Shown here: piece by piece, positions 16,174 to 20,387 of the stretch
Position numbering within the stretch: the stretch's first letter is position 1
How the letters are laid out: every line of letters begins with the position of its first letter
Source of the DNA: Chloroherpetonaceae bacterium
GTDB taxonomy: Bacteria > Bacteroidota > Chlorobiia > Chlorobiales > Chloroherpetonaceae
Length of the DNA: 33,934 nucleotides
Assembly: GCA_028277445.1 (NCBI GenBank)
Contig: JANQGG010000056.1
Span: forward strand, 1 to 33,934
Reading direction: 5' to 3'
Program-made: the position numbers and the translations under genes
Notes under the pieces: model-generated
Databases searched by the model: none
What the model saw: the letters and a program-made list of their open reading frames with translations, nothing else
Told to the model about the DNA's origin: nothing

Positions 16174-16183
16174 GTTTGGAAAT
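16174..16183 (+). other. Possible cassette junction (attC-like 3' core) upstream of hipB
   Basis: GTTTGGAAAT resembles the 3' core of the two downstream attC-like sites: GTTGGGAAAA at 18074 and GTTAGAAATA at 20316. It lies 20 bases before the first possible hipB start. I cannot find a convincing partner core upstream in this AT-rich stretch, so it is only a weak candidate for the left end of the cassette block. Confidence 0.2.
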
Positions 16184-16194
16184 ACTTACATTAA

Positions 16195-16566
16195 GTGCAA
16201 ATAAATGGTTTAATGATGAGAAATACTCGCATAGATTGGGTTCAAATGTCTGATTCGGCAATAGTGAAACAAATAGGGAGTTACATAAGGCATGAGCGCT
16301 TGCGGCAAAATAAGAAGCAGGTTCAATTGGCGGAAATGGCAGGTTTAAATCGCTGGACAATTAGTCAGATTGAAAACGGAGAATCCATTACATTAACAAG
16401 CTTGATTCAAATCTTGCGGGCATTGGACTGTTTATATCTGTTGAAAGCATTTGAAGTTTCGGATGAAATAAGCCCCTTGGAATATGCCAAACTTAAAAAG
16501 CAACAAAAGAAACGGGTTAGAAATAAAAAAACAAATATACCGGATAAAGACGATTTGGGATGGTAG
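16195..16566 (+). CDS. hipB: HipB-like antitoxin, XRE-family repressor
   Basis: The longest frame gives 123 residues. Its helix-turn-helix domain (about residues 25-85 of that frame) has the typical LAEMAGLNRWTISQIENGE recognition segment. A lysine-rich tail follows. The long frame would start at GTG 16195; ATG codons at 16213 and 16246 give shorter proteins. The start at 16246 (MSDSAIVKQIGSYIRHERLR) looks most like other HipB proteins. It should bind its own promoter and neutralise HipA. Its stop overlaps the hipA start by 7 bases, a usual sign of translational coupling. Confidence 0.9.
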   Translation: MQINGLMMRNTRIDWVQMSDSAIVKQIGSYIRHERLRQNKKQVQLAEMAGLNRWTISQIENGESITLTSLIQILRALDCLYLLKAFEVSDEISPLEYAKLKKQQKKRVRNKKTNIPDKDDLGW

Positions 16567-17861
16567 ATGTGGCCGAAGTAAAAATATGGGGCGAATTGAT
16601 GGGGGCTGTTCGCTGGGATGAATCGCAGCAATTGGGTTATTTCCAATACGACCCAAAATTTATTCAAAAGGATTGGGATATATCACCTATCAAAATGCCA
16701 ATCGCGCAAGGTTCAAGAATTTATAGTTTTCCCGAATTACGAAAAGGGCGTAATGAAACGGACGATGCCTTCAAGGGTTTGCCGGGTTTATTGTCTGATG
16801 CATTACCGGACAAGTACGGAAATAAGCTGATTAATACGTGGTTAGCCCGACAAGGAAGACCGGAAAACAGTATGAATCCGGTGGAGAAATTGTGCTTTAT
16901 CGGCGCGAGAGGAATGGGAGCATTAGAATTTGAACCGGCACAAATCAAAACAGGAACAAAAAGTTTCTCATTAGAGCTGGATAGTTTGGTTGAAGTCGCA
17001 AGAAAAATTCTCAATGAACGAGAAGCTTTTTTAGCCAACTTCAATAAAGATGAGGAAAAGGCAATGATGGAAATATTAAAAATAGGAACATCAGCCGGCG
17101 GAGCACGTCCAAAAGCCGTCGTTGCATATAATCCAAAAACTGGAGAAGTAAGATCAGGACAGGGAAATGCGCCCAAAGGTTTCCAGCATTGGTTGCTCAA
17201 ATTAGATGGCGTAAGTGGAGAACAGTTTGGCGAGAGCTCCGGATGGGGGCGAGTAGAATATGCTTATTACCTGATGGCAAAAGATAGTAAAATAGAAATA
17301 AGTGAATCTCAATTGCTGGAAGAAAATGGAAGAGCACATTTTATGACCAAACGTTTTGATAGAGAACATAATGTCAAGCATCATATCCAATCTCTATGCG
17401 GTTTGCAACATTATGATTTTAATGATATGTATGGATATAGTTATGAACAAGTGTTTCAGACCATGCGGTTACTACGATTAACTTATCCTGAAGCCGAGCA
17501 AATGTTTCGAAGAATGGTATTTAATGTGTTAGCTACCAACTACGATGACCACACAAAGAATTTTTCTTTCATGTTAAAAAAAGATGAGGGATGGAGACTG
17601 GCTCCTGCTTACGACTTGTGCTTTTCTTTCGACCCTACCAATCATTGGGTAAGCCAACAAACCTTAAGTGTCAATGGAAAAAGGCTTGGAATAACTAAAG
17701 AGGATTTGATGACGATAGCTAAGGATAATAATATCAAAAAAGGTGAGAAAATTATTGAAGACATTAATGCTATAGTGAATTCATGGAATAAATATGCAGA
17801 ACAAGCCGAAGTAAGAAATGATTTGAAAGAACGAATTAATAGCAATTTGAATACATTCTGA
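16560..17861 (+). CDS. hipA: HipA-family Ser/Thr kinase toxin
   Basis: This 433-residue toxin kinase of type II toxin-antitoxin systems has a known homologue in E. coli that phosphorylates glutamyl-tRNA synthetase and causes growth arrest. The N-terminal subdomain (about 5-125) and kinase core are both present. The Gly-rich GTSAGGARPK loop (176-185), which carries the autophosphorylated serine in the family, is intact, as is K214 (LLKLDG). The catalytic loop is DDHTKNFS (329-336), and metal-binding D352 lies in AYDL. The loop has DDH instead of the common DGH. A gltX gene is present in the same window, but that is probably coincidence. The protein looks complete. An attC-like structure begins 90 bases after the stop. 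Confidence 0.92.
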   Translation: MVDVAEVKIWGELMGAVRWDESQQLGYFQYDPKFIQKDWDISPIKMPIAQGSRIYSFPELRKGRNETDDAFKGLPGLLSDALPDKYGNKLINTWLARQGRPENSMNPVEKLCFIGARGMGALEFEPAQIKTGTKSFSLELDSLVEVARKILNEREAFLANFNKDEEKAMMEILKIGTSAGGARPKAVVAYNPKTGEVRSGQGNAPKGFQHWLLKLDGVSGEQFGESSGWGRVEYAYYLMAKDSKIEISESQLLEENGRAHFMTKRFDREHNVKHHIQSLCGLQHYDFNDMYGYSYEQVFQTMRLLRLTYPEAEQMFRRMVFNVLATNYDDHTKNFSFMLKKDEGWRLAPAYDLCFSFDPTNHWVSQQTLSVNGKRLGITKEDLMTIAKDNNIKKGEKIIEDINAIVNSWNKYAEQAEVRNDLKERINSNLNTF

Positions 17862-17951
17862 AAAGTCAAAGCAATACATGCCAACGCTCAAACCCAAGCT
17901 TGTCTAAGAGTGTGTCTTTTCATACGCTCAGAGAGAAAAGATAGCGTTTAA

Positions 17952-18080
17952 GCCCAACAATGTGTTAAAAATAATAGTCTGGGTAGAAAAATTCACGGGC
18001 TTTAGCCCGCTTCAGCCTTCTTGCAACTTGATAGGAAAGTGCCACGCAGTCGGCTACTATTCTTATGCTAGCCGTTGGGA
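17952..18080 (+). other. attC-like imperfect palindrome after hipA
   Basis: The 5' core GCCCAAC (17952-17958) fits the integron RYYYAAC consensus. The 3' core GTTGGGA (18074-18080) fits GTTRRRY except at the last base. Inside them, TTAAAAATAATAGTC can pair at 12 of 15 positions with GGCTACTATTCTTAT. The 129-base length is within the known attC range. A second hairpin, CGGGCTTTAGCCCG, sits in the loop. The first 12 bases share 10 with the start of the site at 20229. No integrase gene is in the window. Confidence 0.4.
17996..18009. repeat. REP-like hairpin
   Basis: CGGGCTTTAGCCCG is a perfect palindrome able to form a 5-6 bp hairpin. ACGGGCTTTAGCCCG-type hairpins recur between genes in many genomes. 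Here it sits within the loop of the attC-like structure. No T run follows, so it is not an obvious terminator. Confidence 0.4.
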
Positions 18081-18119
18081 AAAATTAGAAAAAAGATAAA
18101 AAATGACCATCTTTAAAGC

Positions 18120-19442
18120 ATGAATTATCTGAACGAAATAGCAGTAGAATACCAATCAAACAAGGTAAGGAAAGAGGACCATGCATTTCATAATTGGTAC
18201 AGGTTCGTACTTTCATATCCTCCTCACTTAGTCAATTATTACCTTGATAAGTTTGGAGTTGATTCAGGTTCTCTCGTACTTGACCCGTTTAGCGGAACCG
18301 GAACCACTCTTGTAGAATCCAAGTTGAATAGGATTAAATCAGTTGGAATTGAAGCTAATCCCGTTGCAAGATTTGCGACAAGGACCAAGCTGAGATGGAC
18401 CATCAACACTGATGAACTTCTGGATACTGCTCTGGACATCATGGATTCTCTAAATAGAATTTTCAAGGAATCAGGAATTGAAGATAAAGAAGATTGCCAT
18501 CAAAATGTTAACTTACTCAATCTTCGATCCCTACCTCCAGAGAGCGAAAAAATCCTTTTAAAGAACTCAATTAGTCCAATTCCACTTCACAAGTCAATCT
18601 TACTGATTGAACAAATCAAGTCCGTAAAAGATGAACAAATAAGGGATAATTTACTTCTGGCAGGCCTTAAAACCATTGTTGGAGATGTGAGCAACCTAAA
18701 ATTTGGCCCGGAAGTAGGTCTTGGAAAAATTAAATTAGATGCTCCAATTCTTGAACCTTGGATTTGCAATGTATCAAAAATCATTGAAGACATTTCATCA
18801 TTAAAAATCCTAAACAATGACATTGATTCAGAAGTACATTTGGGTGACGCACGAATAGCCAATCAATATTTGACTCCAAACTCTATCTCAGCCGTTATCA
18901 CTTCACCTCCATATCCAAACGAAAAGGACTATTCTAGAACAACTCGATTGGAGAATGTACTAGTTGGTCTTGTTACTAATATGCAGGATTTAAGGGGTGT
19001 TAAGAAAACATTTGTCCGCTCTAATACAAGAAGTGTTTACAAAGAGGATTCCGATCACTTATATGTTAAAGACTTTGAATCAATTCAGCAGATTGCTAAA
19101 AAGATTGAAAAGCGGAGAATTGAACTCAACAAGACCTCAGGTTTCGAAAAAATGTATCATAAGGTTGCCCTTCAATATTTTGGGGGCATGACCAAACACT
19201 TGGTCAACATCAAGAATAGTCTTGTTCCAGGTGCAAAACTTGCTTATGTAGTTGGAGATCAAGCATCTTTTCTGAGGGTTATGATTCGAACTGGTCAACT
19301 ACTAGCTGAGATTTCTGAGTCACTTGGTTATCGTGTTGTAGACTTAGAATTGTTCCGAACACGCTTTGCAACAAGATCGAAGGAAGAATTGAGAGAAGAG
19401 GTATTAATTTTGGAATACTTAGGAAAATCAAATGGCAAGTAA
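18120..19442 (+). CDS. DNA methyltransferase of a type II restriction-modification system
   Basis: This 440-residue AdoMet-dependent methyltransferase has motif I as DPFSGTG (55-61) and the catalytic motif IV as TSPPY (261-265). TSPPY is typical of N4-cytosine methyltransferases, although some N6-adenine enzymes carry similar motifs. Motif I precedes motif IV, with about 200 residues between them that probably include target recognition. This order fits the alpha or a circularly related class rather than beta. It should protect host DNA from the nuclease encoded by the next gene, whose start overlaps its end by 11 bases. The ATG at 18120 lies 40 bases after the attC-like site. The recognition sequence cannot be deduced by eye. 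Confidence 0.9.
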   Translation: MNYLNEIAVEYQSNKVRKEDHAFHNWYRFVLSYPPHLVNYYLDKFGVDSGSLVLDPFSGTGTTLVESKLNRIKSVGIEANPVARFATRTKLRWTINTDELLDTALDIMDSLNRIFKESGIEDKEDCHQNVNLLNLRSLPPESEKILLKNSISPIPLHKSILLIEQIKSVKDEQIRDNLLLAGLKTIVGDVSNLKFGPEVGLGKIKLDAPILEPWICNVSKIIEDISSLKILNNDIDSEVHLGDARIANQYLTPNSISAVITSPPYPNEKDYSRTTRLENVLVGLVTNMQDLRGVKKTFVRSNTRSVYKEDSDHLYVKDFESIQQIAKKIEKRRIELNKTSGFEKMYHKVALQYFGGMTKHLVNIKNSLVPGAKLAYVVGDQASFLRVMIRTGQLLAEISESLGYRVVDLELFRTRFATRSKEELREEVLILEYLGKSNGK

Positions 19443-20220
19443 CAGATACAGTAAATTAATTGAGAAAATCTTCTTCGATAATTACAAGAAGGGGAACAGG
19501 CGGGTTGAGTTCGTGCGTAGTGACATTGAGAAAGCGGCAAAAGCTTTGAAAATAGATCTCCCAAAGAATCTTGGGGATGTGATATACTCTTTTCGCTTTC
19601 GGACTGAGCTTCCATCAAAAATTGTTCAACTAGCTGGAAAGGATGAAGAATGGCTAATAAAACTTACCGGTAGAAGTACATACTGCTTCAGTCTTGAACA
19701 AAAATTAGAGATTGTTCCAAACCGACATTTAGCACACTCGAAAATATTAGATTCAACCCCCGGAGTAATCAACAAATATTCACTTTCTGATGAGCAAGCA
19801 TTACTTGCCATTCTGCGTTATAACCGTCTTCTGGACATTTTCCTTGGTATTACCTGTTATTCCTTGCAAAATCATCTAAGAACAACAGTACCAGACTTGG
19901 GACAAGTTGAAACTGATGAGATTTATATTGGTTTAGATAAGAGGGGCGTGCATTATGTTATACCTGTTCAAGCCAAAGGAGGAAATGACAAACAAGGCAA
20001 AGTTCAAATAGAACAGGATATTGAATTATGTAAGAGTAAATTTCCTAACCTTATTTGTATTCCAGTTGCGGCCCAGTTCATGCAAGATGGTAAAATTGCT
20101 TTATTTTCATTTGAGCAAGACAAGGCATCGATTAAGATAACCTCAGAAAGGCATTATAAATTAGTGGATTCAAACAACCTTTCAGACGATGAATTGGAGA
20201 ATTATAAAAAGAGGAAATAA
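19432..20220 (+). CDS. Putative type II restriction endonuclease (PD-(D/Q)xK type)
   Basis: This 262-residue protein follows the methyltransferase with an 11-base overlap. I do not recognise a named family. The segment VETDEIYIGLD (159-169) followed by HYVIPVQAKGG (174-184) looks like a PD-(D/E)xK nuclease core: acidic D162/E163, then beta-strand Q180-x-K182. Gln replaces the usual acidic residue, as in Mrr-like enzymes. A helix with QIEQDIELC follows, as expected for this fold. The N-terminal 150 residues could hold target recognition. The overlap, shared strand and core motif support a cognate restriction enzyme. Activity and cut site are unknown. Confidence 0.78.
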   Translation: MASNRYSKLIEKIFFDNYKKGNRRVEFVRSDIEKAAKALKIDLPKNLGDVIYSFRFRTELPSKIVQLAGKDEEWLIKLTGRSTYCFSLEQKLEIVPNRHLAHSKILDSTPGVINKYSLSDEQALLAILRYNRLLDIFLGITCYSLQNHLRTTVPDLGQVETDEIYIGLDKRGVHYVIPVQAKGGNDKQGKVQIEQDIELCKSKFPNLICIPVAAQFMQDGKIALFSFEQDKASIKITSERHYKLVDSNNLSDDELENYKKRK

Positions 20221-20226
20221 AGAACG

Positions 20227-20323
20227 TTTCCCAACATTGTAAACTCCCCTAAAACCCGAACAGTTTAAAAGTAGAAAAACAAAGCTAACCCAAATATACA
20301 GGGGTGGTAATTTTTGTTAGAAA
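20227..20323 (+). other. attC-like imperfect palindrome after the restriction gene
   Basis: TTTCCCAAC (20227-20235) pairs with GTTAGAAA (20316-20323). Further in, ACTCCCCT (20243-20250) pairs with AGGGGTGG (20300-20307), with one extra base on the right arm. The cores fit RYYYAAC/GTTRRRY except at the outermost base of each. CCCAACATTGTA at the left resembles CCCAACAATGTG in the site at 17952. The structure starts 6 bases after the stop codon, the place where integron cassettes carry attC. Degeneracy makes the call tentative. Confidence 0.35.
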
Positions 20324-20350: not shown

Positions 20351-20387
20351 GTGAAATTCCGGCCGCCTTTTTTGCGGGCGGCCGGAA
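20351..20387 (-). terminator. GC-rich hairpin after dapA, probable terminator
   Basis: A perfect 11-bp stem TTCCGGCCGCC/GGCGGCCGGAA (20357-20367 and 20377-20387) has a 9-base loop and lies 14 bases past the dapA stop. Only TTT follows on the minus strand. It is very strong and GC-rich against an AT-rich background. It marks the boundary between the dapA operon and the convergent accessory block. Confidence 0.6.

Follow-up and report, generated by a model that had tools for sequence, protein, structure and literature searches.

A probable integron-type cassette-array remnant in a Chloroherpetonaceae genome, and related hairpin sites beside IntI-related recombinases without the I2 helix

In integrons, a site is completed by a cassette's own two ends and not by the two halves of a linear site. 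The additional domain of the integron integrase IntI, the I2 helix, has been described as the acquisition that enabled these enzymes to work on single-stranded hairpins; its deletion abolishes the function of IntI1, and no ancestor sequence is available (PMC7790495). The parts of Smyshlyaev et al. (2021; PMC8138268) consulted here call the insertion essential for integron function and also cover insertion-less relatives. How integron surveys select and report integrons has been set out elsewhere (PMC2426708, PMC9024848). Here, we describe a locus and a family of sites pointing to a gene-capture system that may have been overlooked because its partner recombinase is without the helix regarded as essential to integrons. 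In the open-licence literature, preprints and subscription journals excluded, we found no description of such a system.

The window, the whole stretch of DNA analysed here, is one entire contig (C14, 33,934 bp) of a Chloroherpetonaceae genome of 3.42 Mb in 70 contigs. A proline dehydrogenase gene and dapA flank four genes: hipB, hipA, a methyltransferase and an endonuclease. A sequence-only reading had proposed that the two gene pairs are integron cassettes without an integrase, each followed by an attC-like palindrome. We conclude that the window very probably holds the remnant of an integron-type cassette array, whose attC-like sites of about 121 nt belong with an IntI-related recombinase lacking I2. 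The features are as follows, with R1 and R2 denoting site models defined below.

16195 to 16566, plus strand: hipB-like antitoxin (Pfam HTH_3, E 7.6e-12), probably cargo of the upstream cassette
16560 to 17861, plus strand: hipA-like toxin kinase (Pfam HipA_C and Couple_hipA)
17952 to 18080, plus strand: attC-like recombination site 1, recognised by homology to array sites of the nearest relative, the R2 profile and covariation in the family
Parts of site 1, plus strand: R'' 17952 to 17958; L'' stem about 17963 to 17980; L' stem about 18051 to 18067; R' 18074 to 18080
18074 to 18082, plus strand: apparent left end of the restriction-modification cassette, GTTGGGAAA, a perfect 9-bp reverse complement of 20227 to 20235; the crossover would be at G^TT
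18120 to 19442, plus strand: type II DNA methyltransferase, apparent cassette cargo (Pfam N6_N4_Mtase; PADLOC MTase_II, 114 bits)
19432 to 20220, plus strand: type II restriction endonuclease, apparent cassette cargo (PADLOC REase_II PDLC03404, 375 bits, full length)
20227 to 20235, plus strand: apparent right core (R'') of the restriction-modification cassette, TTTCCCAAC, pairing at 9/9 positions with the cassette's own left end
20236 to 20322, plus strand: rest of the proposed site 2, degenerate, replaced or chance

The methyltransferase and endonuclease are thus predicted to form a type II restriction-modification pair (PADLOC MTase_II and REase_II). Between this cassette and dapA, a perfect 11-bp G+C-rich inverted repeat at 20357-20387 is probably a bidirectional terminator.

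The palindrome reported after hipA is present at 17952-18080, with the cores GCCCAAC and GTTGGGA. Both cores had been thought to deviate from the consensus at one outer base; this holds for R', which departs from GTTRRRY at its final base, and not for R'', which matches RYYYAAC. The palindrome alone is no proof, since its free-energy fold is unremarkable against shuffles (z about -0.5) and a crude palindrome scan of the window returned equally good pairs elsewhere. The proof is homology. In a BLAST comparison between two genomes, site 1 was 81% identical (E 4e-26) to repeats in the arrays of G001, the closest relative sampled, whose closed genome measures 3,293,456 bp. There, the same repeat stands after each of four consecutive unrelated genes at one locus (L009) and marks two further cassettes at another (L014); the repeats carry CAACAATGTRTA-like and AACTTGAYAGG-like motifs at a spacing of 70 nt. 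The cargo of these G001 cassettes looks defence-related, with a GmrSD-type system, a Thoeris-like TIR pair with TPR-S, and a D12 methyltransferase with a PDDEXK nuclease (L009:11013-12821; L014:10238-13577). With a family model that includes the window site (R1), 17 copies were recovered from the genome to which the window belongs, and 15 of the 41 genomes of the order have copies; five of the sites in the window's genome form an array on contig C6, and the others are scattered. A second model (R2) was built from 59 sites, all but two from integrase-centred loci, with the window site left out. On the window it scored site 1 at 33.1 bits (E 1.8e-6), the sole significant match, the runner-up reaching 8.1 bits. 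Judged by its sequence relatives, the palindrome is real and a member of a repeat family.

The family is a hairpin of about 121 nt whose structure is conserved. Among 12 core-cut aligned sites, the L stem is preserved by compensatory changes, with 15 pairs altered on both sides and a covariation of 0.355 against 0.138 in shuffles. The 59 R2 sites, in which AAC and GTT are invariant (59/59) as the motifs for which they were selected, share an L stem of 18 bp in which 85.8% of cells are paired, with a covariation of 0.58 against 0.17 when shuffled; R and L stems covary in both sets. One stem position is unpaired in 58 of 59 sites and reads A.C on the top strand in 53. As this conserved A.C turns into G.T on the bottom strand, it favours bottom-strand folding, and the computed bottom-strand fold was indeed the more stable one in 44/59 sites (p 1e-5). 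The computed structure is a bottom-strand hairpin with an unpaired spacer and an L stem. For site 1 itself, the difference between top and bottom strand is negligible (-14.4 versus -14.7 kcal/mol).

The cassette logic of integrons can be read directly from such arrays. For consecutive sites less than 2 kb apart, we compared the six bases past the core at both ends of the cassette between them. These matched perfectly in 33 of 40 cassettes, compared with 1.5% of random pairs, while the mean match of this type within a single linear site was 2.5/6. A second set, from separately fetched loci of named genomes, gave 14 perfect pairs out of 19. The cassettes' own ends thus complete one site. This bears on a reading of the hairpins as structured non-coding RNAs, terminators or REP-like repeats that follow genes by chance. 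The hairpins do lie downstream of genes and covary, and an Rfam search of the window, which returned a tRNA as its sole match, assigned no family to site 1. Own-end complementarity finds no explanation in RNAs or terminators, because the partners lie a whole gene apart and differ between cassettes; the 33 perfect cassettes, the invariant AAC/GTT cores and the recombinase nearby leave this reading barely credible.

In the window, the same comparison gives 6/6 for the restriction-modification cassette; of the comparable GTT/AAC pairs there, 0.045% match in full. The palindrome reported after the endonuclease therefore survives in part. Its left core, TTTCCCAAC, is meaningful because it is the perfect reverse complement of GTTGGGAAA, the start of that cassette, and it sits directly after the endonuclease stop codon; the remainder matches neither R1 nor R2 and folds no better than shuffles. 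This unlikeness to the family past the left core is what would speak for a 9-bp end match by coincidence, with site 1 in the family and the restriction-modification pair not a cassette at all. We consider that unlikely: the GTT is fixed by site 1, the AAC had been named before the end comparison was conceived, a 6/6 match is rare among comparable pairs, and the position just past the stop codon fits a cassette. The restriction-modification pair thus looks like a precise cassette with GTT...AAC ends. The hipBA pair is probably the preceding cassette, with its site (17952-18080) surviving. A first junction had been suggested at GTTTGGAAAT before hipB; there, only 2/6 bases agree with that cassette's own end, and the own-end comparison located no left boundary for hipBA. 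What stands of the proposed integrase-less integron-type cassettes is therefore site 1 and the restriction-modification pair, without the hipB-side junction and half of site 2.

The poor fit of site 2 to the family and the missing left end of hipBA count against our explanation, as does comparison with relatives of the cargo: where hipBA-like genes or similar restriction-modification pairs occur elsewhere, their flanks mostly lack such a site. The hipA relatives, at about 60% identity, are scattered in Bacteroidota, and no site of the family was found within 1.5 kb of them; flanks of close restriction-modification relatives likewise showed no family site nearby. The idea that these relatives are independent cassette carriers was dropped for this reason. 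For an empty-site comparison, lpxB-proline dehydrogenase synteny is preserved in three relatives, in none of which dapA was found within 1.5 kb.

The partner recombinase emerged from an integron integrase family search as enzymes matching in two stretches with the middle absent. In G001, G032 and G022, R1 sites follow the gene for such an enzyme on its strand; in G006, G023, G027 and G034, as well as on contig C57 of the window's genome, they follow a truncated copy in the same way. In an alignment of 44 enzymes, 43-46 residues stand where canonical IntI has 85, i.e., the additional domain that characterizes canonical integrons is absent. The associated recombinase is thus related to IntI without being the canonical integrase that the sequence-only reading would have called for. 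None of four enzymes tested reached the NCBIfam integron integrase cut-off, and those of G001 and G007 exceed that of NCBIfam NF040815. The closest solved sequences are archaeal XerA and then, in two stretches, IntI4; IntI4 and XerA are also the closest folds of a predicted model (pLDDT 88.7, pTM 0.61). A quickly built tree (87 proteins) places the new enzymes with IntI, apart from XerC/D of the order (SH-aLRT 99), so that they do not group with the host Xer proteins, and IntI forms its own group inside. Where an attI would be expected beside the integrase, the G001 recombinase and the remnants of this enzyme have a sequence in common behind them, which ends in ...CAAACGTT.

Many of the enzymes (those of L069, L121-L143 and others) carry an extra N-terminal domain at residues ~1-60. 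It is modelled as strand-strand-helix-strand-strand-helix, has the motif W-S-x(n)-W-x-(L/I/V)-P and matches no Pfam family; it recalls HARP domains and is a candidate DNA-binding module. The truncated copies had suggested a recombination hot spot inside the gene, an idea we dropped: three C-terminal fragments have the same upstream junction and look like copies of one truncated element. In L073, L074 and L075 (from G023, G006 and G027), truncated recombinase 3' ends with a common upstream junction are each followed by a cassette and a site, apparently a defective element that recurs within one genus.

Taking the phylum as a whole, 84 of 247 Bacteroidota genomes encode an enzyme of this kind (E no higher than 1e-40). 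At 45 loci oriented by the enzyme, AAC/GTT hairpins of about 121 nt recur downstream, commonly every 0.6 to 1.5 kb. With a length of 112-128 nt and a stem score of at least 13.5 as limits, we counted 68 sites downstream on the recombinase strand, a density of 17.4 per 100 kb, compared with 2.8 per 100 kb (8 sites) upstream; shuffling the downstream DNA left no such site. We prefer this control to one with CAA/TTG cores, which partly refinds the same hairpins, offset by one or two bases. Where at least 3 kb of downstream sequence was available (37 loci), 22 loci have at least one site and 17 at least two. In a few loci, and this counts against our explanation, the array lies on the opposite side of the recombinase and points away from it; in L144, L146, L147 and L155, the upstream sites have the reverse-complement orientation of the family, as in the classical divergent layout. 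In another four (L119, L135, L152 and L156), the contig ends 100-610 bp past the recombinase, as expected if repeat arrays break assemblies. Searched with the R2 profile, 80 loci taken from named genomes (including Flavobacterium aciduliphilum, F. enshiense, Algibacter onchidii, Winogradskyella ursingii and Zunongwangia mangrovi) yielded 93 matches, most of them on the enzyme's strand and downstream of it; the Bacillota and Pseudomonadota loci gave none. Across the phylum, it detected sites in 134 of 244 genomes. By a hand count from two lists, these comprise 75 of the 84 recombinase-bearing genomes and 59 of about 160 others (Fisher p 4e-16), the latter 59 having sites yet no recombinase above the cut-off, a point against our explanation. 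Outside Bacteroidota, a Calditrichia bacterium (L248) has two borderline R2 matches (E about 0.03) upstream of a recombinase relative.

These arrays might alternatively consist of ordinary, divergent attC sites moved by canonical IntI, with the I2-less recombinase a mere neighbour. G001 does encode a full-length IntI, located 4 kb away from one R1 array, and has one canonical attC in another array, the window's genome retains IntI remnants, and AAC/GTT cores and cassette logic are those of integrons. A home-made canonical attC model from 14 sites (R3) recovered further canonical-looking sites near canonical IntI of the same order, whereas this same small model matched neither nine new-type arrays nor the window; R2, in turn, made no match in canonical integrons. 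The two profiles thus do not detect each other's sites, and phylum-wide it is the I2-less enzyme that neighbours the array, which renders the canonical alternative improbable and argues against the designation of the window's sites as canonical attC. Of the possibilities raised by the sequence-only reading, its alternative of another palindrome-based mobility system comes nearest to the findings. Both systems can occur in one genome: in G001, a textbook 64-nt canonical attC (L014:14419-14482) shares its region with two new-type sites.

Our preferred reading, a remnant of an array served by the I2-less enzyme, would imply the following mechanism. The bottom strand of a site would fold into an R stem, an unpaired spacer and the 18-bp L stem. 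The IntI-related tyrosine recombinase would cut this single-stranded hairpin at G^TT, and the cassette would be excised as a circle and then re-inserted beside the recombinase gene or at another site. In the window's genome, the recombinase survives as a stretch of 71 residues (70% identity) and not as an intact enzyme, and the search for an intI gene yielded only C-terminal remnants of canonical-type IntI (G000 C68:94929-95114 and C16:80276-80410; L011, L013), which suggests that this genome once had canonical integrons too. With no intact enzyme, the window's cassettes would be immobile unless one is supplied from elsewhere.

More broadly, we lean towards the view that Bacteroidota carry a widespread second kind of integron, with folded bottom-strand hairpin sites and recombinases related to IntI in which I2 was never present or is dispensable. 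If true, surveys demanding the additional domain have missed it, and it could preserve the state before IntI gained I2. Should such sites be present in more than half of the Bacteroidota genomes sampled, a large system for gene capture has escaped annotation. Natural I2-less enzymes would, moreover, make the requirement for I2 directly testable.

Compared with described systems, the new arrays resemble integrons and CALINs in their gene-site-gene order, AAC/GTT cores, self-pairing cassette ends, hairpin sites with an unpaired spacer, signs of bottom-strand folding, and defence and toxin-antitoxin cargo. With regard to the CALIN definition (at least two attC sites and no integrase near), the window has one full and one half site and contig C6 has five, recognised by the family model rather than as canonical attC. 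Unlike integrons, the new system has a recombinase without the IntI additional domain, often upstream of the array and co-oriented with it, and sites of about 121 nt with one conserved A.C mismatch that a canonical attC model misses. The enzymes share catalytic-domain fold and length, and the absence of the I2 insertion, with XerA, XerC, XerD and the NF040815 family ("site-specific tyrosine recombinase/integron integrase"), from which many of them differ by the extra N-terminal domain of about 60 residues; unlike XerC/D, they stand with IntI in the tree, separate from host XerC/D, and neighbour cassette arrays. The insertion-less members of the integron-like subgroup, finally, are not tied to cassette arrays or sites in the relevant parts of Smyshlyaev et al. 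(2021; PMC8138268), whereas the enzymes described here are found beside both.
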